From an uncultured Bacteroidales bacterium (GTDB taxonomy: Bacteria; Bacteroidota; Bacteroidia; Bacteroidales; P3): DNA of 64,000 nt. The stretch lies in contig CAMVMF010000006.1 in NCBI GenBank assembly GCA_947168515.1, positions 1 to 64,000 of the forward strand, given 5' to 3'. Numbering within the stretch: the stretch's first letter is position 1; each line of letters begins with the position of its first letter. Under the pieces are notes generated by a model. It was not told the origin of the DNA, ran no database searches, and saw only the letters and a list, made by a program, of their open reading frames with translations. Shown one piece after another: positions 11,460 through 62,550 of the stretch. Position numbers and translations under genes: made by a program.

Positions 11460-11680
11460 TTACCAAATTCTCAATTCTCAATCCTCAATTCTCAATTCTC
11501 ATTCTCAATTCCCAACTCTCAATTCTCAATTCGAAAAACCCTCAACTCTCAACTCTTCCGCCTCGTCCACCCTTTTAGTTTTTAGTTTTTACCTTTTACC
11601 TTTAAAAAATTCCCAATTCTCAACTCTCAACTCTTCCGCCTCGTCCACCCTTTTAGTTTTTAGTTTTTACCTTTTACTTT
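11460..11680. repeat. 7-mer repeats plus 78-bp tandem pair
   Basis: Between dnaE and the DUF3089 gene lie runs of ATTCTCA/CTCAACT units and two copies, 78 bp apart, of a second core (CTTCCGCCTCGTCCACCC) followed by TTTTAGTTTTTAGTTTTTAC. The same second core, inverted and slightly changed, occurs at 62.36 kb. The second copy runs straight into the -7 box (TATCTTTG, 11698-11705) of the DUF3089 gene. This fills the whole 316-bp gap; no gene is supported here. Confidence 0.85.
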
Positions 11681-12710: not shown

Positions 12711-12951
12711 TGAGAGTTGAGAATTGAGAATTGAGAATTGGGAATTAAGAATTGAGAATTGGCTTCCGCATCTGGATGATTCTCCTTTCTCCTTTCTCAA
12801 TTCTCAATTCAAAAAAGCCTCTTCCTTAAAATTGAGAATTGGGAATTAAGAATTGAGAATTGGCTTCCGCATCTGGATGATTCTCCTTTCTCCTTTCTCA
12901 ATTCTCAATTCAAAAAAGCCTCTTCCTTAAAATTGAGAATTGGGAATTAAG
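12711..12951. repeat. 101-bp tandem repeat of the 7-mer element
   Basis: TTGAGAATTGGGAATTAAG starts at 12731, 12832 and 12933, so the unit is exactly 101 bp: two full copies and the start of a third. Each carries the variant core GGCTTCCGCATCTGGATGAT and ends in CAAAAAAGCCTCTTCCTTAA. The partial third copy overlaps the 3' end of the minus-strand lipoprotein gene and supplies its stop codon. Confidence 0.9.
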
Positions 12952-16789: not shown

Positions 16790-18103
16790 CAGGGCAAACG
16801 CATCATATTTCCAGTAGCGAGAACAGGTAATCGATACTCCAGCCTGCTTTTAGACGCTTTGTCACGAGACTTCCTTTGCCTTTGTCTCGCTTGAGTATAT
16901 TCAGCGAGAATTTTCTCACCAATGCGAAGTTTTCTGCAGCCATGCCGGCACGCTTGCGCTGACGGTCTTCGCCGAATGACATATCAAGCACCCAGTGTAG
17001 CGAGTTCTCCACGCCCCAGTGGCTGCGGATGTGCGATATGAAGTCCGTCTCGCTGCCGAGACTGCTTATGTACCAGCGCGTTTCAGTTGTCTCCTCTTTT
17101 GAGATGGCGTTCCACCTCACGGCAGTTATCTTCACTATGGACTGCAGACCTTTCCATCCATGGTTTTGGCGGATCCACTCCGTCGGCCTGTAGACTTTGC
17201 AGCTTCGGGTCTCCACTCGTCCGTGTCCCTTGTCCACCGACTCCGACACAGGCCGTTCCTCTTTTTCCATCAGTTCCACGTCCTGCAACAGGGTGCCCTG
17301 GTTGCCTTTGAGGGCCAGTATGTAGTCCGCACCGCCGTCGACTATCTTCTCGGCTATGGCTGTCTGCGTCCCCATCGCGTCTATGGTTATTATCGAGCCT
17401 TCGATACACAGCATATCCAGCAGTTCCGGTATGGCCGTAATCTCGTTGCTCTTGTCCCGTGTCTTGCGCTGCCCCAGGCAGATGCCGTTCTCCACGCTCC
17501 AGGCGTGGACGAGGTGGATGGCTGGATTGTCGTGGTATCCGTCGCGGCTGCCCCTGACCGTCTTGCCGTCTATGGCAATGACCTTTTCGGACGAGCCTTC
17601 CGGCTTCAGCCCTTCCGCCCACTCCAGAAACAACCGCTCGAACTGGCGGAACTTGATCGACTGGAACACCCTGTTTATGGTGTCATGCGACGGTATTCCG
17701 TTAGGAAGCCGCAGCCTTCTCTTCAGTGTCTGGAGGTGGTACTTGCCGAATTCCTCTATCGCCTCATAGCTCTCGGCACCACTGGTGACGGCGAGTACCG
17801 CCAGTATTACTATGTCGGCCAGCAGGTGCTTGCTCCTGCCTTTTACTCTCGGGTCGTGCAGCCGTGCTGCTGTTTCATATAAACTTGCCATAACAATTCT
17901 TGATGGTTATGGCTATATAACGAACATTATCTCAAAAATGTTACGTGCTGCCATACAAATAGTTATCAACAATCCACACGCAAACCTGCCCAGAAATGTT
18001 CATAACGTGTTTTTTTTAATTCTGAGACGGGACCACCTGTTGACAACGACGTCACATATGTTGATATTGTACTGATTTTTTAATCTTTCATGCGTTTGCC
18101 CTG
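16790..18103 (-). mobile_element. ISAs1-family insertion sequence
   Basis: 1314 bp bounded by terminal inverted repeats CAGGGCAAACGCAT (16790-16803) and the reverse complement ATGCGTTTGCCCTG (18090-18103). It contains one full transposase gene. No matching target-site duplication is seen: the left flank is ATATGACCCT and the right flank is CTCGGAGTGC. The left flank is an open frame missing its 5' end and the right flank is half a promoter, so sequence next to the IS was probably deleted. Confidence 0.9.
16803..17891 (-). CDS. ISAs1-family transposase
   Basis: 362 residues, full length for the family. DDE-type acidic residues sit in VIAIDGKTVRGS, ITIDAMGTQTAIA and HWGVENSLHWVLDMSF. The N-terminus has DPRVKGRSKHLLADIVILAVLAV and the C-terminus IRSHWGVEN followed by LNILKRDKG, all typical. 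Its stop codon falls 13 bp inside the left terminal repeat. It is intact and could be active. Confidence 0.95.
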   Translation of the reverse strand: MASLYETAARLHDPRVKGRSKHLLADIVILAVLAVTSGAESYEAIEEFGKYHLQTLKRRLRLPNGIPSHDTINRVFQSIKFRQFERLFLEWAEGLKPEGSSEKVIAIDGKTVRGSRDGYHDNPAIHLVHAWSVENGICLGQRKTRDKSNEITAIPELLDMLCIEGSIITIDAMGTQTAIAEKIVDGGADYILALKGNQGTLLQDVELMEKEERPVSESVDKGHGRVETRSCKVYRPTEWIRQNHGWKGLQSIVKITAVRWNAISKEETTETRWYISSLGSETDFISHIRSHWGVENSLHWVLDMSFGEDRQRKRAGMAAENFALVRKFSLNILKRDKGKGSLVTKRLKAGWSIDYLFSLLEI

Positions 18104-20298: not shown

Positions 20299-21018
20299 CT
20301 ATTTCATTATCATAACTGCGATAAACAGCATTACCGACACAAACAACAATATCTTAAACCAAAATAGGCCTTCATTATAATTCTTGTATTTAGTCGTTGC
20401 AATTTTGGAATTAATGTATATCTGTGATTTCAGGTCATCTTCATATTTAGTTCCGCCCTTTTTATAGTCTTCATACTTCATTTGGCTAATATCACCATAG
20501 AAAATATACGATGGCTTCTCTATAGTAGGATTCTCATTATACCTTTTTTCATTGTCAATGTCAGCGCGGATTGCCTGAAATAGGTAAATACAGCACACAA
20601 TCAATAAGGTCATTTCAATAACCAAAAGAACAAAAACCGTGAATCTACTCCAAGAAAATGACAAATCAGAAGTCCCTGAACAATATTCCATAAACGGTGC
20701 AAAGATATAACTTCGCAAGAGTTTCATGATGTCACTGGTCACAATAACAGTAATAGCTACACCTACTATTGCCAGCAAGATACCTGCTTTTTGGTCACAA
20801 TTATTCACCCAAGAGTTAACTGATTCCAACGAAAATTTTAGATTTTCCCTCTCAATGTTGTTTACAGATTCTAATGGTGCTTGCTCTTTGTTTACAGTTT
20901 CCGATAGTGCTTGCTTTTTATTTTGTTTCTTCACTCTTTTACCTATAACATGATTAATGCTCACAAAAACGATAACGGCAATGCAAACAAAAAAATAAAT
21001 AATTCCGAACGTTTCCAT
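20299..21018 (-). CDS. pycTM: Pycsar transmembrane effector (PycTM-like)
   Basis: 239 residues with four predicted membrane helices: about residues 5-25, 73-93 (GILLAIVGVAITVIVTSD), 125-150 and 217-238. The segment SVNSWVNNCDQKAGILLAIVG carries the W...D.KA pattern I associate with Pycsar TM effectors. In Pycsar defence, infection triggers a cyclase to make cCMP or cUMP, and the TM effector responds by damaging the membrane and halting phage production. It starts 28 nt after the cyclase stop, on the same transcript. An alternative reading as a generic SLATT-like 2TM effector cannot be excluded, but the cyclase partner favours Pycsar. Confidence 0.8.
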   Translation of the reverse strand: METFGIIYFFVCIAVIVFVSINHVIGKRVKKQNKKQALSETVNKEQAPLESVNNIERENLKFSLESVNSWVNNCDQKAGILLAIVGVAITVIVTSDIMKLLRSYIFAPFMEYCSGTSDLSFSWSRFTVFVLLVIEMTLLIVCCIYLFQAIRADIDNEKRYNENPTIEKPSYIFYGDISQMKYEDYKKGGTKYEDDLKSQIYINSKIATTKYKNYNEGLFWFKILLFVSVMLFIAVMIMK

Positions 21019-21046
21019 ATTATTCTTATTTTATTAAAAAAAACAT

Positions 21047-22000
21047 TTAAAAAGCCCACAATAATTCAGCACCCCAAACATCAAATTCAATATCCTTAAT
21101 TCTCCGTTTTTCCTTCTTCCACCATCCATTCGTTATACTATTAGAATTAGGTTGGGCTTTTGCATATTCTTGATATACCATGTCGGATAGTAGGATTGGG
21201 TTGTATCTATAATCAACTCCACTCTTTTTTATAGAATAGACTTTACGGCATGAGGATATTTCCAAGTTTTGGTTATATGGTGAGACCCTTAATTTTGATG
21301 ACAGTTCCTCTTCGGTAAACTTTTTTGTTTTCCTGTAGTACCCGCTTGGTCTCCCATGATATAGTCCAATCCCAAAATCAAGCTCATAGAATTCTCCATC
21401 GACAAAGTAAACGACATCAGTAAAATTCTTGTTAGCACAGTCTGTAAGGCGTGAAGCAAAATTTGAAGGATAGCCGACCCATACAAGCCCCTTATTGTCA
21501 TCATTCTCTACACCCTTCTTCCGTATACCAACCTTCATTACGCTGAGCTTTCCATAGTCAACACCTATACCACATTTAAACTCAAAATTGTCAAACTTCT
21601 GGTTTATCAGAGAAGCTATATGATTGATTGTGATAGCACAGTGCACAGCCTTCTTATAGCTATCAACGGGAGGAAACACCACCATCACTCTGTCACCAAT
21701 GATATTACGGACATACCCTCCTTCATATTGTGCAGCAAGTAAAACGCAATGAGTAAAAACTGAGTATATCCTACCCATTGTGCGGATTTGCTTGTCTTTA
21801 GTGAGTTGGACGGAGTTTCTTATATCGACAAACAAGACACATGTGTTAATCTCAACACCTTTCTTTTCTTCCCCATTACCGTATGTTAGACTAGGATCAT
21901 CCAATCCCGGAACATAGCTCTTCGTGGTGAATGTGAATGTGGTGTTTTTCCAATCGTTAATGACGTTTGTGATATCTTCGAAAAAATCTTTACGTGACAT
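21047..22000 (-). CDS. pycC: Pycsar class III nucleotide cyclase (PycC-like)
   Basis: 317 residues. The class III cyclase core has metal-binding Asp59 in CVLFVDIRNS, Asp103 in IIGDRVMVVF, and the transition-state pair in SNFASRL (Asn180, Arg184), preceded by VWVGYP. There is no transmembrane or sensor domain in front of the core, as in Pycsar pyrimidine cyclases. The last 80 or so residues form a separate small region (KVYSIKKSGVDYRYNP ... FDVWGAELLW), perhaps a sensor tail. Whether the product is cCMP or cUMP cannot be read by eye. It is preceded by shared promoter copy D and followed by the TM effector. Confidence 0.85.
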   Translation of the reverse strand: MSRKDFFEDITNVINDWKNTTFTFTTKSYVPGLDDPSLTYGNGEEKKGVEINTCVLFVDIRNSVQLTKDKQIRTMGRIYSVFTHCVLLAAQYEGGYVRNIIGDRVMVVFPPVDSYKKAVHCAITINHIASLINQKFDNFEFKCGIGVDYGKLSVMKVGIRKKGVENDDNKGLVWVGYPSNFASRLTDCANKNFTDVVYFVDGEFYELDFGIGLYHGRPSGYYRKTKKFTEEELSSKLRVSPYNQNLEISSCRKVYSIKKSGVDYRYNPILLSDMVYQEYAKAQPNSNSITNGWWKKEKRRIKDIEFDVWGAELLWAF

Positions 22001-22156: not shown

Positions 22157-23428
22157 CTATTTTGCCCCCAACAGCCATTTGGTAGCGGGGAGTACGTGGA
22201 TAGTTTCGTTGTCTTTTTCAATCGTCTGCTCGGTGCCGAAGGTAATCAGCGTGAGGTTACGGCAATTGAACTTTTTGGCACCTCGCAGCAGGGCATTGAT
22301 TTCGCGCTGACGTGTTCTTTTGGAAGTGACATTGTAACTTACTTGTATCAATTCCTGCACGATTCCGTTTTTGGCCACTAAGAAATCAATCTCAAAGGAT
22401 TTCTCCTTATAGTAGAATATTTCGGCATACTGGTGGTGATAACGGCGCAGGAGTTCCAGGCACACCACATTCTCCAGCCGCCATCCGAGATTTTCAAGCG
22501 AGAAGGTGTCGTTGCGCTCGGCGGCCAAAGCCACGTCTACCACATAGCATTTCTCGTTGCGAAGGCGTTCGCTGGCCTTGTAGGAGAACTTCTTTACACC
22601 AACAAACAAGAATGCCTCTTTCAAGTAGCCGAAATATTTCTCGGCCGTATGGTTGGAGATACCGAACAACTTAGCAATGGCGGTGGCCGAAAATTCTTGT
22701 GCAAAGTTGTCGGCGAGATAAGCGGCCACCTTTGCGAGGATATCTACTTGACGGATGCGGAAGCGCCGAGATATGTCGTTGCGGATGATTGCATTAAACA
22801 AACCGTCGATATAGTTTTGGGGGTTGCTCTCGTTCTGCAATTCGGGAAAACCGCCTACATGAAGGTATTTGTGCAGTGCATTTTGCCGAATGCCCTCGGC
22901 TTTGGTGGTGATGGAAGCGACATCTACGCCGCTCATACGGCAATAGTCAGAAAAAGAAAAAGGATAAAGCTCCACCTTATTGTATCGGCCTGTAAGGTGG
23001 GTAATCAGCTCGTTGGACAACAACTTAGAGTTCGACCCCGTAAGGAAGATACGTTTTTTTTGCCGCAACAGTCGGTTGACAAACAGCGGCCACGACTCCA
23101 CATTCTGTATCTCGTCGAAGAAAAGGCAATCTACATTGCCATAAACAATATAGATGGCTTCGAGCAGTTTGTTTAGGTCATCGGTCTGCATCGTCGAAAG
23201 ACGTTCATCGTCGAAATTGACAAATGCACAATTGATAGCATTGTCTATCAGGTACTTGGTACAAAAGGTAGATTTCCCGCTCCTTCGCACCCCAATGACC
23301 ACCTGTGCCAAACCACTATCTGGTGATAGCTGTGAAGCCTCGTCGCGATTGCAGAAGACACTCATATCTTCTGACTGAATCTCCTCGCGTTGGTCGGCCA
23401 CTATCTGGGCTAATTCTTCAACTGACAT
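22157..23428 (-). CDS. AAA ATPase of the DUF4143 family
   Basis: 423 residues. Walker A VVIGVRRSGKSTF, Walker B CLFFDEIQNVESW, sensor FLTGSNSKLL and SDYCRMSGVD typical of AAA_14. The C-terminal DUF4143 region includes ISNHTAEKYFGYLKEAFLF (winged helix) and a PDDEXK-like tract YKEKSFEIDFLVAKNG...ELIQVSYNV. These proteins are common in Bacteroidota and are carried in multiple copies; their function is not established. The promoter (-7 TATCTTTG at 23445-23452) is preceded by an array of five regularly spaced repeats. Confidence 0.85.
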   Translation of the reverse strand: MSVEELAQIVADQREEIQSEDMSVFCNRDEASQLSPDSGLAQVVIGVRRSGKSTFCTKYLIDNAINCAFVNFDDERLSTMQTDDLNKLLEAIYIVYGNVDCLFFDEIQNVESWPLFVNRLLRQKKRIFLTGSNSKLLSNELITHLTGRYNKVELYPFSFSDYCRMSGVDVASITTKAEGIRQNALHKYLHVGGFPELQNESNPQNYIDGLFNAIIRNDISRRFRIRQVDILAKVAAYLADNFAQEFSATAIAKLFGISNHTAEKYFGYLKEAFLFVGVKKFSYKASERLRNEKCYVVDVALAAERNDTFSLENLGWRLENVVCLELLRRYHHQYAEIFYYKEKSFEIDFLVAKNGIVQELIQVSYNVTSKRTRQREINALLRGAKKFNCRNLTLITFGTEQTIEKDNETIHVLPATKWLLGAK

Positions 23429-23458
23429 ATGGTAATTTTTTTTGCAAAGATACGAAAT

Positions 23459-23620
23459 AATTCCTTATTGGGACAAAAAAAGTATATAAAACTTCCTTAT
23501 TTTCCCAATTTTCGGCAGTGAAACTTCCTTATTTGACCTGTTTCGGCACCCGAAAACTTCCTTATTTTCCCAATTTTCGGCAGTGAAACTTCCTTATTTG
23601 TACCAATGGAGCAGCCATTG
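23459..23620 (-). repeat. Five iterons with 32-bp spacing upstream of DUF4143 ATPase
   Basis: TTCCTTATT begins at 23461, 23493, 23525, 23558 and 23590, spacing 32, 32, 33 and 32 bp, about three helical turns. Units 2-4 share more sequence, ACTTCCTTATTT with TTTTCGGCAGTGAA after it; units 2 and 4 are nearly identical, giving a 65-bp super-repeat. The proximal unit abuts the -7 box. This looks like a cooperative operator for a DNA-binding protein stacked on one face of the helix. Confidence 0.85.
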
Positions 23621-23651: not shown

Positions 23652-24974
23652 TCACATATCGTCCATGGAGAGGCCTATCTGGGTGACGCTATATTTGGCC
23701 AGATGGGTACTCAATGAGGCCACCTTTCGGGACAGTTCGGCGGGATTATATTTCTTTGGCTGTCGTTTGATTTCTGCCACAATAGCTGTCTTGTCGATAT
23801 CGTTGATGGCAATCATGTCTATCTCGTTTTCTCCTTTTCGATCCCAATAGTTGCCCACAAGCGTCACACGCTCTTCTTCCATCCATTTCTGGCGGTAATA
23901 CTGTTCAAGCACTAGGCCCGAAAACTGTTCATAGTCCCGTTCGACAATTTCTAACAGAAGGTCGTGGCGTCCCATTTCGACAAGCGACTGATTGCGCAGA
24001 ATAAAACGAAACCAAAATCGAAGGAAACAGTCATCTATTTGCCAGCGCAGATTGCGACCTCCGGGCTTGCTGAAAATGGGTTGTTTACGGTGGATGTAGT
24101 TGTAATCGCTTTCAAGGTTATCGAGGTATGAACCTGTGTTTTTCCCGATAGCACCGTCTATCTCGCTTTGTGTTGTCATGCCAGCTGCAATGAGTTGCAA
24201 GATGCTGAGATAGTTGGTGTAGTCTTTCCCAAACTCGGACATGATAAGTTCTGACCCCTCAGAAAGGTAGGGCGAGCCCTCCTGCGTAATCCAACGGAGC
24301 ATCTGTGTCTTAGTGGTGGCTCCGCTGTCCATAAGCCAAGCCACATACTTAGCAACGCCACCTGTTAGTGCGTAGAGGCAAAGCAGGTCTTCGGAGGTAT
24401 ATTGCGGGTTGTGGTCACCAAGAATCTGTTTCAACACCTGTATTCGGAATGGCTGCACAGCTATTCGACAGTCTTGGCGGCCATAGAGGGGTTCGTCTTC
24501 GTTGTCGAATATCTTGTGCATCATGCTATAAATGCTGCCACAAGCCACCAGATTGACTTTGGACTGCTCGTGATAACGGTCCCATAAATCTTGAATATGA
24601 CTTGGGATGGCAGGATTTGTTTTAACGAAATTCTGAAACTCGTCAAACACAAGTGTAAAATGGTGTTGCTGTCCATAGCGCAACAGTTGCTCAAAGAATT
24701 GGGCAAATGTTTCCATCTGGCCGTAAACCTCTAGACCAAGCATCCGAGCAGCTGCTTCTTGAAATTTGCTTGTCAAAACCTTCTCGTTGTCTTTAGAAAC
24801 GTATAGGTAAAGCATGGGGGAGTAGCCATCGGAGCTATCGGCACCTTGGGTCAGCAAGGTGGTTTTACCAACACGTCTCCTCCCGATAAGAACTGTAAGT
24901 CGCCCACGTTCAGTAGATTGATTCCAATTCTGGAGAAGTGTTTCCAACTCTTTTTTTCTATCGTAGAATCTCAT
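23652..24974 (-). CDS. AAA ATPase with DUF234-like C-terminus
   Basis: 440 residues. Begins MRFYDRKKELETL, then Walker A VLIGRRRVGKTTLL, Walker B FTLVFDEFQNFVK and sensor VACGSIYSMM. The middle holds a winged helix (MTTQSEIDGAIGKNTGSYLDNL). The C-terminus has FWFRFILRNQSLVE and the DUF234 nuclease-like tract WDRKGENEIDMIAIND...AIVAEIKRQ, where the E-ID...EIK spacing resembles a PDDEXK site. Function unknown; the archaeal-type ATPase/DUF234 family is often found near mobile or defence genes. A palindrome lies between promoter and start codon. Confidence 0.85.
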   Translation of the reverse strand: MRFYDRKKELETLLQNWNQSTERGRLTVLIGRRRVGKTTLLTQGADSSDGYSPMLYLYVSKDNEKVLTSKFQEAAARMLGLEVYGQMETFAQFFEQLLRYGQQHHFTLVFDEFQNFVKTNPAIPSHIQDLWDRYHEQSKVNLVACGSIYSMMHKIFDNEDEPLYGRQDCRIAVQPFRIQVLKQILGDHNPQYTSEDLLCLYALTGGVAKYVAWLMDSGATTKTQMLRWITQEGSPYLSEGSELIMSEFGKDYTNYLSILQLIAAGMTTQSEIDGAIGKNTGSYLDNLESDYNYIHRKQPIFSKPGGRNLRWQIDDCFLRFWFRFILRNQSLVEMGRHDLLLEIVERDYEQFSGLVLEQYYRQKWMEEERVTLVGNYWDRKGENEIDMIAINDIDKTAIVAEIKRQPKKYNPAELSRKVASLSTHLAKYSVTQIGLSMDDM

Positions 24975-24991: not shown

Positions 24992-25025
24992 AACCGCCAT
25001 TAAATTAATGACGGTTGCAAAGATA
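24992..25025 (-). promoter_or_regulatory. Palindromic operator and -7 box for DUF234 ATPase
   Basis: AACCGCCATTAA (24992-25003) faces TTAATGACGGTT (25005-25016) around one base, with one mismatch in 12. The -7 box TATCTTTG on the minus strand is at 25018-25025, so the palindrome would lie across the transcription start, suited to a repressor. Confidence 0.6.
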
Positions 25026-25063: not shown

Positions 25064-26071
25064 TTAATGATAAAGGCTGTGCATCTGGCTGGCGATTTCG
25101 GCTATCTGCTGGCGCAGGTGCTGGGGTTGCAGCACTTCGATGTCGGCTCCGAAGGAGAGCAGTTCGGCCACCAGCTCGCGGTTCACCCGCATGCGAAAAG
25201 TAATGGTGTGGCTTTGGTCATCATAGTCGACGATAAGCTGATTCTCGCTGAAAGGTTTGGTCTCGACATAGGGGTAACGCTGGTTCGAAACCCGCAGGAT
25301 TATCTGTTCGACGGCCATGTCGCTGTTGCGGCTCACACCAATCATGTTGTCGAAGAAGGTGCTGAAATCCACCTCCGGCTGACGGTAGGCGTGCCGCCAC
25401 TGGCGGATGCCAAGTATGCGGTCGAGGGCGAGGTTCTGGATGCCGTCGCGCCCTTCGACTGCGGCAAAAAGGAACCACCGGCTGTTGAACTGCTTGAGAT
25501 GGTAAGGATGAACTTTCAAATCCTCGGGACTGGGTTGGAAATAAGGCTTGTATCGTACTATGACGGGATGGCGGTTTGTGATGCTCTCCAGCATAGTGGC
25601 GAAATGCGCATTACCGGCAAAGGCACTGTTGTTCTCGAAACTGACGTAGGGGTCGTCCGCCTCTAAAGGACGCCCGTCGGCAATGGCCTGGAGGGTGGTG
25701 AGCATCCACTGCCACTGGGGGTTCTGCTCGTCGGCATCGCTATAGCGTTGGAGCAACATGTCGATGGTACGGGTGAGGGCATCATGGTCAGGTGCTGCCA
25801 GCTGAAGGACTTCTAGTCTAAAGGAAGTGTCGGAATAGCGATAATAATAGCGTTCCTTCAACTCGGGGTCAAACTCGACGTTGTAGGGTTCACTCTGGAG
25901 TTCTTGTAAATCGTTCTGTATGGTGCGTTTAGAAATTGGAGGCAGGCCTTTCTTGTTTAATTCTCGGTTGCAACGCTCCAGTAGGTCGCTGGCCTTATAG
26001 CGTTGCGAGCCATCTCGAAAACAGCTGTCGAGCACCGCGTAACGTAGCATCTTATTTCGGTCAAGGGGCAT
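25064..26071 (-). CDS. WYL-domain transcriptional regulator
   Basis: 335 residues. The N-terminal winged helix shows RYKASDLLERCNRELNKKGLPPISKRTIQNDLQEL. The WYL domain follows from about residue 145: HPVIVRYKPYFQP, VHPYHLKQFNSRWFLFAAVEG, LALDRILGI. The C-terminal extension has LSFGADIEVLQPQHLRQQI. WYL regulators often sense nucleic-acid or nucleotide ligands and commonly control phage-defence genes. It starts 19 nt after the Fic gene on the same strand, so the two form an operon and it may regulate Fic (inference). Confidence 0.88.
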   Translation of the reverse strand: MPLDRNKMLRYAVLDSCFRDGSQRYKASDLLERCNRELNKKGLPPISKRTIQNDLQELQSEPYNVEFDPELKERYYYRYSDTSFRLEVLQLAAPDHDALTRTIDMLLQRYSDADEQNPQWQWMLTTLQAIADGRPLEADDPYVSFENNSAFAGNAHFATMLESITNRHPVIVRYKPYFQPSPEDLKVHPYHLKQFNSRWFLFAAVEGRDGIQNLALDRILGIRQWRHAYRQPEVDFSTFFDNMIGVSRNSDMAVEQIILRVSNQRYPYVETKPFSENQLIVDYDDQSHTITFRMRVNRELVAELLSFGADIEVLQPQHLRQQIAEIASQMHSLYH

Positions 26072-26090: not shown

Positions 26091-27314
26091 TCAGGCTAAT
26101 GTGTATGTTCGGTTTCGGTTGGCACCGTGGGCAACAATCTTTCCTTGGCTAAGCAATTGGTAGATGTAGGCTTTGGTCTGTGTGGGTTTCAACCCAAGGA
26201 GGTCCGACAGGTCGGCTGTTTTACAACTTCCTTTCTTTTCGAGAAAAGATATAATCATCGTCAGTTTATCGTCGGCAATAACGTTTTTGTCGCCAATTAC
26301 GGCTGTTTTATCGTCGGTTTCGGCCCCGTTATCGTCGGTTTGCACCCCGTTATCGTCGGCATAGAGGACTTTATCGTCGGCCTCAACCTTTTTATCGTCG
26401 GCTTTTGCAGTTTTATCGTCGGGGGCGGGCTCCATTTTGTTGATTAGTGTCGGATTAACGTCGGAAACCGAGGGAGTCTCGTCCTCACACCCCTCGGGTG
26501 CAGCAACAAGCATGGACCGGTTCTTCAATTCATTATGTTCTAATAGCAGCAGGTTGCGGAAGAAGCGTTCTAGGAAACTGAAGTCGTAGTCGATGCCTAG
26601 GCGGGCATTCTTATAGTTGGCACGGACCAGCGCATTGCGGAAATACCATGAGTGCTCTTTGAAAAGGTTATTGGTCACCTCGTAACCCAAAGAACGGAAA
26701 TACTGGATGGCAAACACGGCAGTGGTGCGGGTATTGCCCTCGCGGAAGGGATGGATCTGCCAGAGGCCCGAGACGAATCGGCAGAGGTGGCGCACTTTCT
26801 CCAATTCGGAGAGCCCCTTGTAGCTGAATTGGCGTTCCTGTTGAATATCATAATCGAGGGCCCGCCGCAGGTCTTCCCAGTTGAGATAGCGGACGGTGTC
26901 GCCTCGAAGCACCCATTCTTTCTTGGTGATGTCGAAGGGTCGGAGTTCTCCGGCATGTTTGAAGACCCCTTCAAAGATGCGGCGATGGGTGGCCACAAAG
27001 CCGTTGGTGTTGAAGGCAAACGTCGGGGAGGAAAGAATCTTCTTGATGTTGGCGGAAGCTTTGTCGCACTCAGCCTTGTCGTCGTCAATAGGGGTGCGGC
27101 CAGTCTTGGAGCTATAGTAGGAGTCGAGCATCTGCCTCACTTCATCAATGGTGATGTCGCCGTCGATGTTGCGACGGGCGGCGTCGAGGAGGTATTGTGA
27201 GGGCTGAAGGCCGTCCACCTGTTGCAGTCCGATGGCGGTCTGCCATTCGAATGCGCTTTCCCGTGCCGATGGCTCCACCTGCCTTATGTATTCGTCAAAA
27301 TCCTGTTGTTTCAT
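26091..27314 (-). CDS. Fic-family protein with DDK-repeat linker and C-terminal winged helix
   Basis: 407 residues. The Fic core motif is complete: HPFREGNTRT with catalytic His188, so AMP- or other nucleotidyl transfer activity is likely. The N-terminal part (ESAFEWQTAIGLQQVDGLQPSQYL) is typical of the large Bacteroidota Fic family. After the core, residues about 292-345 are a low-complexity linker with eight or so DDK/DDN/GDK units every 6-7 residues, encoded by repeated TTATCGTCGG. A small winged helix (TADLSDLLGLKPTQTKAYIYQLLSQGK) ends the protein. Target protein unknown. Likely cotranscribed with the WYL regulator. Confidence 0.88.
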   Translation of the reverse strand: MKQQDFDEYIRQVEPSARESAFEWQTAIGLQQVDGLQPSQYLLDAARRNIDGDITIDEVRQMLDSYYSSKTGRTPIDDDKAECDKASANIKKILSSPTFAFNTNGFVATHRRIFEGVFKHAGELRPFDITKKEWVLRGDTVRYLNWEDLRRALDYDIQQERQFSYKGLSELEKVRHLCRFVSGLWQIHPFREGNTRTTAVFAIQYFRSLGYEVTNNLFKEHSWYFRNALVRANYKNARLGIDYDFSFLERFFRNLLLLEHNELKNRSMLVAAPEGCEDETPSVSDVNPTLINKMEPAPDDKTAKADDKKVEADDKVLYADDNGVQTDDNGAETDDKTAVIGDKNVIADDKLTMIISFLEKKGSCKTADLSDLLGLKPTQTKAYIYQLLSQGKIVAHGANRNRTYTLA

Positions 27315-27404: not shown

Positions 27405-27578
27405 TGAATTGAGAATGGAGAGGTGAGAATTGAGAGTTGAGAGTTGGCTTCCGCACCCGGATAATTCTCCATTCTCAATTCCCAATTCTCAATTCACGAG
27501 GGTTGAGAGTTGAGAGTTGAGAATTGGCTTCCGCACCCGGATAATTCTCCATTCTCAATTCCCAATTCTCAATTCACA
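27405..27578. repeat. Dispersed 7-mer repeat element, tandem pair
   Basis: Two near-identical copies about 85 bp apart, each with GAGTTGAGAGTTGG-type runs, the core GGCTTCCGCACCCGGATAAT and ATTCTCAATTCCCAATTCTC. The array ends five bases from the stop codon of the minus-strand gene at 27582 and fills most of the 267-bp gap to the Fic gene. Confidence 0.88.
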
Positions 27579-54789: not shown

Positions 54790-54965
54790 TGTAGACCCAG
54801 ACCAACGGCACGCACCCAAACATCCTCTAGGTCAGAGACCCAGACCAGCGGCACACAACCGAACATCCGCCAGGTCAGAAATCCAAACCAGCGGCACGCA
54901 GCCACACATCCGCCAGGTCAGAAACCCAGACCAGCGGCACGCTCCCAAACATCCGCCAGGTCGGG
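54790..54965. repeat. 43-bp minisatellite, four copies
   Basis: ACCA(G/A)CGGCA begins at 54801, 54844, 54887 and 54930, so the unit is exactly 43 bp (contains CATCCGCCAGGTCAGAAA). Copies differ at a few positions. 43 is not divisible by 3, and frames crossing it cycle through all registers, so it is not coding. It lies upstream of the DUF1963 gene on the minus strand. Confidence 0.88.
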
Positions 54966-62369: not shown

Positions 62370-62550
62370 AAACTAAAAGGGTGGGCGGTGAGAATTGAGA
62401 TTTGAGATTTGAGATTTGAGATTTGAGAATTGAGAATTGGGAATTGAGATTTGAGATTTGAGATTTGAGATTTGAGATTTGAGAATTGGGAATTGAGATT
62501 TGAGATTTGAGATTTGAGATTTGAGATTTGAGAATTGGGAATTGAGATCG
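62355..62550. repeat. 7-mer repeat array, expanded
   Basis: GTAAAAGGTAAAAACTAAAA, the second repeat core inverted (AAAAGGGTGGGCGG), then about 20 units of TGAGATT/TGAGAATTG, most with 7-nt periodicity, ending near 62550. It begins inside the coding end of the membrane protein and separates it from the winged-helix gene in the same direction. Confidence 0.9.

Follow-up and report, generated by a model that had tools for sequence, protein, structure and literature searches.

Repeated putative binding sites and candidate defence ATPases

The AAA+ proteins DnaA and archaeal Orc1/Cdc6 have repeated binding sites near their own genes. Direct-repeat operators are also known from phage-defence loci, where the RptR protein binds direct repeats in its own defence-locus promoter and thereby represses it (PMC12255303). 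The PDC-S01 proteins, ATPases of the AAA_14/DUF4143 or COG1373 type, rank fourth in frequency among prokaryotic defences according to one paper, which states that validation by experiment is still pending for most such candidates (PMC12988326). In PADLOC, both PDC-S01 and PDC-S27 are single-gene phage-defence candidates. The open-access papers searched on DUF4143, COG1373 and PDC-S01 yielded no description of an upstream repeat array, nor of self-specific, helically quantised arrays of PDC-S01 in two domains of life.

The array upstream of the DUF4143 gene

The window analysed here is a stretch of 64,000 nucleotides from an uncultured Bacteroidales bacterium (contig CAMVMF010000006.1). An earlier note on this DNA had described a DUF4143 ATPase gene preceded by five copies of a short repeat, spaced at about 32 bp and adjoining the -7 box of the gene. 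The features of the locus are as follows, with positions counted in the window.

22157-23428, minus strand: DUF4143 ATPase (COG1373-type, PADLOC PDC-S01), 423 aa, from Pfam, PADLOC and AlphaFold2
23445-23452, minus strand: -7 promoter box TATCTTTG of the ATPase gene, read in the sequence
23461-23469, minus strand: degenerate promoter-proximal site (TTCCTTATT on the plus strand), just upstream of the -7 box, from 48-nt family D1
23489-23502, minus strand: putative operator site 1, AAATAAGGAAGTTT (AAACTTCCTTATTT on the plus strand)
23521-23534, minus strand: putative operator site 2
23554-23567, minus strand: putative operator site 3
23586-23599, minus strand: putative operator site 4
23488-23600, no strand: array body with internal 65-bp duplication, from family D1 and TRF

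The five starts of TTCCTTATT given earlier (23461, 23493, 23525, 23558 and 23590) are all correct; the measured spacings are 32, 32, 33 and 32 bp, and the last copy lies 8 bp from the -7 box. Four of the copies share an extended 14-base site, AAACTTCCTTATTT, beginning at 23489, 23521, 23554 and 23586 and reading AAATAAGGAAGTTT in the direction of the gene, while the copy closest to the promoter, at 23461, has a degenerate sequence (AATTCCTTATTGGG). The motif CTTCCTTATT occurs four times in the window against an expected 0.11, a count reached by none of 100 shuffles, and TRF reports the array with a period of 32 and a score of 155. Within the 3.26-Mb genome, exact AAACTTCCTTATTT is confined to these four places. 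The same search returned a single site with one mismatch (AAATTTCCTTATTT) on contig C80, 300 bp from an ATPase_2 gene; this lone site, with no array, was judged to be a chance match.

The blocks at 23488-23535 and 23553-23600 are identical, so that two units and their spacers have been duplicated and the array grew in part through a 65-bp duplication. A CRISPR array was ruled out because the spacers are themselves repeated and the conserved core is only 14-16 bp long, and no RNA family matched the array.

The ATPase protein

Pfam recognizes AAA_14 (1.5e-31) and DUF4143 (2e-21) in the window protein, and PADLOC assigns residues 24-421 to PDC-S01 (5.1e-100). The AlphaFold2 model (mean pLDDT 92) consists of an AAA+ domain (residues ~37-170), a three-helix winged helix (~227-297) and a C-terminal PD-(D/E)XK-like alpha/beta domain (~310-423). 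Both Walker motifs are present, with Walker A reading G-x-R-R-x-G-K-S and D105 and E106 invariant. The closest solved structure found by Foldseek is the archaeal ATPase Sso1545 (2FNA), and the matches also include DNA-bound Aeropyrum Orc1.

The catalytic D...(D/E)xK motif of PD-(D/E)XK nucleases does not occur in the window protein or its subfamily, where E346, D348 and Q362 are followed by S, C, T or A at position 364 (alignment A2). Most members surveyed in Bacteroidales retain an E-x-D...ExK pattern, with E in 86 of 97 and K in 84 of 97. The substitution of Q-x-S/C/T for E-x-K argues that nuclease catalysis has probably been lost or altered in the window's subfamily. In the same alignment Q362 is invariant in 49 of 49 members of this PDC-S01 subfamily, which suggests a conserved, non-canonical role. 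Arrays are found with both the canonical ExK pattern and the Q-x-S/C/T pattern.

Genes around the array

The neighbours of the ATPase gene include the following.

20299-22000, minus strand: Pycsar-like pair directly behind the DUF4143 gene (PycC cyclase 7e-36, PycTM effector 2e-39)
23652-24974, minus strand: ATPase_2 + DUF234 gene (PADLOC PDC-S27), the upstream neighbour
24992-25016, no strand: imperfect palindrome AACCGCCATTAAATTAATGACGGTT, adjoining the -7 box of the DUF234 gene (25018-25025), from sequence reading
25064-26071: WYL-domain regulator
26091-27314, minus strand: Fic-domain protein (PADLOC PDC-S72, 8e-119)

With PDC-S01, PDC-S27, the Pycsar-like pair and the PDC-S72 Fic protein close together, the region around the DUF4143 gene looks like a defence-rich one. 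The DUF234 gene itself lacks a 33-bp array. Many of its relatives carry short inverted or tandem repeats at the place that matches its palindrome, with other sequences (for example GTAACCACCGTTACGGTAACGG in locus L269), and DUF234 ATPases may have putative operators of their own with another geometry.

The window contains further repeats. A 21-bp tandem repeat (26308-26359) lies inside the Fic-protein gene, and a 43-bp tandem repeat is present in 3.9 copies at 54795-54962. Many intergenic arrays of a heptamer (AATTCTC/GAGAATT type) were also seen, among them those at 11466-11532, 12729-12951, 27424-27577 and 62389-62548; some of these carry longer duplications of 80-101 bp.

Arrays across the DUF4143 family

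The earlier note had proposed a search for the same iteron upstream of other DUF4143 genes, and the survey made here shows that related genes do carry such arrays. The upstream regions of 101 DUF4143 genes from 31 Bacteroidales genomes were compared with those of 319 control genes from the same regions; each was scored for self-similarity over lags of 15-60 bp, with dinucleotide shuffles as the reference. Direct repeats with a period of 22-24 or 32-33 bp precede 62 of the 101 DUF4143 genes and 13 of the 319 controls (Fisher p=3e-34, a value that ignores relatedness among loci and takes the first ATG as the start codon). Lags of 25-31 bp are nearly empty. Control genes with a period of 22-33 bp that lie near a DUF4143 gene mostly share its array divergently, and the remaining periodic controls have mainly low-complexity repeats. 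About a third of family members have no detectable array.

A broader set was obtained by scanning GTDB genomes with the window's subfamily, which gave 80 loci, spread over many phyla and including archaea, with 79 of them scorable. A significant period (p<=0.01) was found in 51 of these 79: 23 bp in 12 loci, 31-34 bp in 34, 42 bp in two and 53 bp in one, with exceptions at 16 and 48 bp. The periods thus step by about ten bases, that is, by whole helical turns. Among the loci with arrays are archaeal ones (Methanoperedens, with a clean 33-bp array in one MAG, Thermococcus, Nanoarchaeia and Micrarchaeota) as well as Treponema and Chlamydiae MAGs. Outside Bacteroidota about 12 of 30 loci are significant, mostly with one or two sites; a number of these loci come from MAGs, for which the taxonomy is taken as labelled.

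A single genome can hold many such genes, with up to 29 DUF4143 matches, and 335 plasmid records carry related genes. In the window's genome the arrays of the paralogues all differ in sequence and each lies at a DUF4143 promoter: contig C25 has TCCAAAAAAATGTA at 33 bp, C4 has a 23-bp unit repeated 13 times, C1 has a 33-bp unit and C57 has two further arrays. Among the DUF234 and other ATPase_2 genes examined there are no 32-33 bp arrays, although in many DUF234 genes short inverted repeats lie close to the -7 box or on its downstream side, and the long array is accordingly a trait of DUF4143 genes rather than of all such ATPases.

Two loci were noted for their surroundings. On plasmid pTS1 of Treponema saccharophilum the DUF4143 gene sits between hsdR and a methyltransferase gene in a Type I R-M locus, and on pACLO of Arcobacter cloacae it sits between cas3 and cas4.

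Register and promoter phase in the window's subfamily

Within the window's own subfamily a site is kept in register (AAAATAnCGnAGTTTa). A profile built from the shared consensus finds the site gtAAAATAnCGnAGTTTa, repeated 32-33 bp apart, in 23 relatives with ~40-63% protein identity; one of these (L174) falls under the profile threshold, yet has its own repeats at 31-33 bp. Clades carry variants of the site, such as AAATAAGGAAGTTT in the window, AAAATAGCGCAGTTT in Odoribacter lunatus and AAAATAACGCAATCT in Parabacteroides distasonis. This in-register conservation reaches down to ~42% protein identity, while the spacers differ. A close relative (genome G018, locus L093) carries the array together with both ATPase genes, and in the intergenic region none of the 56 motif bases has changed, against 14 differences in the other 167 positions.

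Quantisation extends to the gap between the last site and the -7 box. Of 21 loci, 19 have a gap of 18-19, 28-31, 40-42, 51 or 61-63 bp, with 9 and 37 bp as the exceptions. The phase of the last site is non-uniform (n=21, Rayleigh R=0.80, p~1e-6) at 10.7 bp, which was the best of eleven periods tried on all sites; periods of 10.5-11 each give p<1e-5 for the last site. Pooling all sites inflates the Rayleigh value, since those of one array are not independent. The quantised distances show that the array keeps its phase both internally and relative to the promoter.

Candidate binders of the sites

Several lines of evidence bear on the identity of the putative binding protein. Genome searches with three array units returned almost only the cognate promoter. 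Two array patterns searched for in viral contigs had no exact match there. The site sequence tracks the clade of the protein rather than the genome: the mean best 14-mer match between loci rises from 8.23 at <30% protein identity to 8.68 at 30-45%, 9.22 at 45-60% and 10.01 at >=60%, while unrelated ATPases that share one genome match at the level of chance (8.28 vs 8.21). Genome G021 has four paralogues, 59-66% identical, whose 23-bp units all differ. In addition, the sites overlap or adjoin the gene's own promoter and are specific to the cognate clade and essentially absent elsewhere in the genome, as one would expect of an operator bound by the product of its own gene.

An extra pair of GTCCGAAAAAATGTA sites, 33 bp apart, was seen on contig C48 of genome G000 (locus L253, ~17228-17275 of the contig). 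This solo array remnant precedes a truncated DUF4143 start, MERLIYNDLLKWK, and represents a dead copy of the C25-type gene.

Divergence of the site correlates with that of the wing (r=0.31) and the C-terminal domain (r=0.41), but not with that of the AAA+ domain (r=0.13, n.s.). With r between 0.24 and 0.41, n=19 and several segments tried, these correlations are weak and only suggestive; conserved promoters, too, would follow phylogeny to some degree.

Taken together, helical quantisation, a site that follows the protein clade and confinement to the promoter point to the ATPase itself as the putative binder of the array. The confinement to the promoter, the clade tracking and the paralogue-specific units likewise favour the ATPase over a shared host factor as the probable binder, and the fact that relatives have their own, different versions of the array suggests that each ATPase may read its own sites for self-control. 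The interpretation first offered for this array, phased sites under cooperative control possibly by the ATPase, is thus supported at the level of sequence.

A proposed model for autoregulation

We consider it likely that the phased array is an operator bound by the ATPase itself, which thereby autoregulates its gene, probably by repressing the promoter. The ~16-bp site (AAATAAGGAAGTTT here, gtAAAATAnCGnAGTTTa in the subfamily) would be contacted by the winged helix, and possibly also by the C-terminal PD-(D/E)XK-like domain. The copies are three helical turns apart here, and two, three or four in relatives; with the sites also in phase with the -7 box, bound ATPase molecules would all sit on the same face of the DNA, next to RNA polymerase, and could touch one another through their AAA+ domains. 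In many relatives the promoter-proximal site lies over the core promoter, where binding would most likely lead to cooperative autorepression. A candidate defence ATPase that is potentially harmful would in this way be kept low until it is titrated, its nucleotide state changes or a trigger is met. One binding mode may not fit all subfamilies, however, since the site is asymmetric in the window's subfamily and palindromic in others.

A wider proposal, which we regard as speculative and rather doubtful, is that PDC-S01 is self-addressed across bacteria and archaea: each clade would have a private phased array, paralogues would have diverged without cross-talk, the array would serve as both operator and oligomer-loading platform, and loss of the array or its titration by invading DNA would be the defence trigger.

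Alternative explanations

The main rival on the sign of regulation is activation, and the main rival on the binder is a separate regulator. In the first, the ATPase would bind the array as an activator or on a sensor platform, the array loading an ATP-driven oligomer that would be released or activated on infection, and repression would be at most a secondary role. This agrees with autorepression on the binder and differs in outcome, and we think it possible though not probable. Where relatives have the last site as far as 40-60 bp upstream, a position that suits activation as well as repression, it still stays in phase with the -7 box, and arrays of up to 13 units seem beyond what repression needs. 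A Thermus DUF4143 gene is also among the genes whose expression changes in the presence of plasmid DNA (PMC4406477), indicating that at least one DUF4143 promoter can respond. Many relatives, however, have sites over the -33/-7 region or further downstream, which is a better fit with repression; because of this overlap with the core promoter, autorepression is the most likely outcome.

Alternatively, a separate host transcription factor might bind the array, with the ATPase merely the regulated gene. Operators of this type are usually bound by dedicated small regulators, as when RptR represses its own defence-island promoter via three direct repeats (PMC12255303), and the WYL-domain regulator lies close by in the window. 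Yet with several unrelated arrays in one genome, each only at a DUF4143 gene, one private regulator would be needed per ATPase; orthologous ATPases in different Bacteroidales families share the site at any location, and no separate regulator gene was seen at the loci looked at. We consider an independent regulator quite unlikely.

The term iteron used in the earlier note raises the possibility of replication or partition, in which an Orc1/Cdc6-like ATPase of a (former) mobile element would use the array as its origin or as an exclusion site. Archaeal Orc1/Cdc6 genes commonly adjoin their own binding repeats, the Foldseek matches to Sso1545 and DNA-bound Orc1 indicate a distant fold relation, and related genes are present on the plasmid records mentioned above. 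The arrays are nevertheless over the gene's own promoter and in phase with it, the neighbours of the window gene are ordinary chromosomal genes, and the maximum of 29 DUF4143 matches per genome is far above the number of replicons. The replication sense of the word is not supported, and this explanation is very improbable. Finally, a neutral minisatellite without function would suit a genome rich in tandem heptamers and an array partly built by duplication, but the fixed register and quantised spacing across dozens of loci and the lack of such enrichment in control genes refute it as a general explanation and leave it with a negligible chance.

Comparison with known systems

The arrays offer a concrete candidate DNA ligand for dozens of family members, which would allow a direct in vitro assay, and they suggest self-regulation by an ATPase without a dedicated repressor. 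The fast-diverging sites, together with the varying wing and C-terminal domain, form a natural data set for an AAA+ DNA-recognition code.

The window protein matches PDC-S01, for which an anti-phage role is a candidate one, and its subfamily lacks the catalytic Lys of PD-(D/E)XK that most of the surveyed family keep. The array resembles the BrickBuilt element of Porphyromonas gingivalis, also from Bacteroidota, in that BrickBuilt consists of intergenic 23-nt tandem repeats with promoter activity (PMC4596501). BrickBuilt, however, is a MITE dispersed at 19 sites, and the text of that paper makes no mention of an ATPase (PMC4596501); the DUF4143 arrays are gene-specific and not dispersed. The likeness to RptR of the Type I R-M/DarTG2 islands lies in promoter direct repeats at a defence locus, here with a putative local binder. 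RptR is a dedicated 9-kDa regulator that uses 9-bp repeats and one site across bacteria (PMC12255303), whereas the DUF4143 repeats recur at 23 or 32-33 bp and differ for each ATPase, with no separate regulator seen. The ORB repeats of archaeal Orc1/Cdc6 and the DnaA boxes are similar in a different way: there too, an AAA+ protein with a winged helix has repeated binding sites close to the gene that encodes it. For the DUF4143 sites nothing indicates a role as an origin, and they lie over the promoter of their own gene in strict helical phase.
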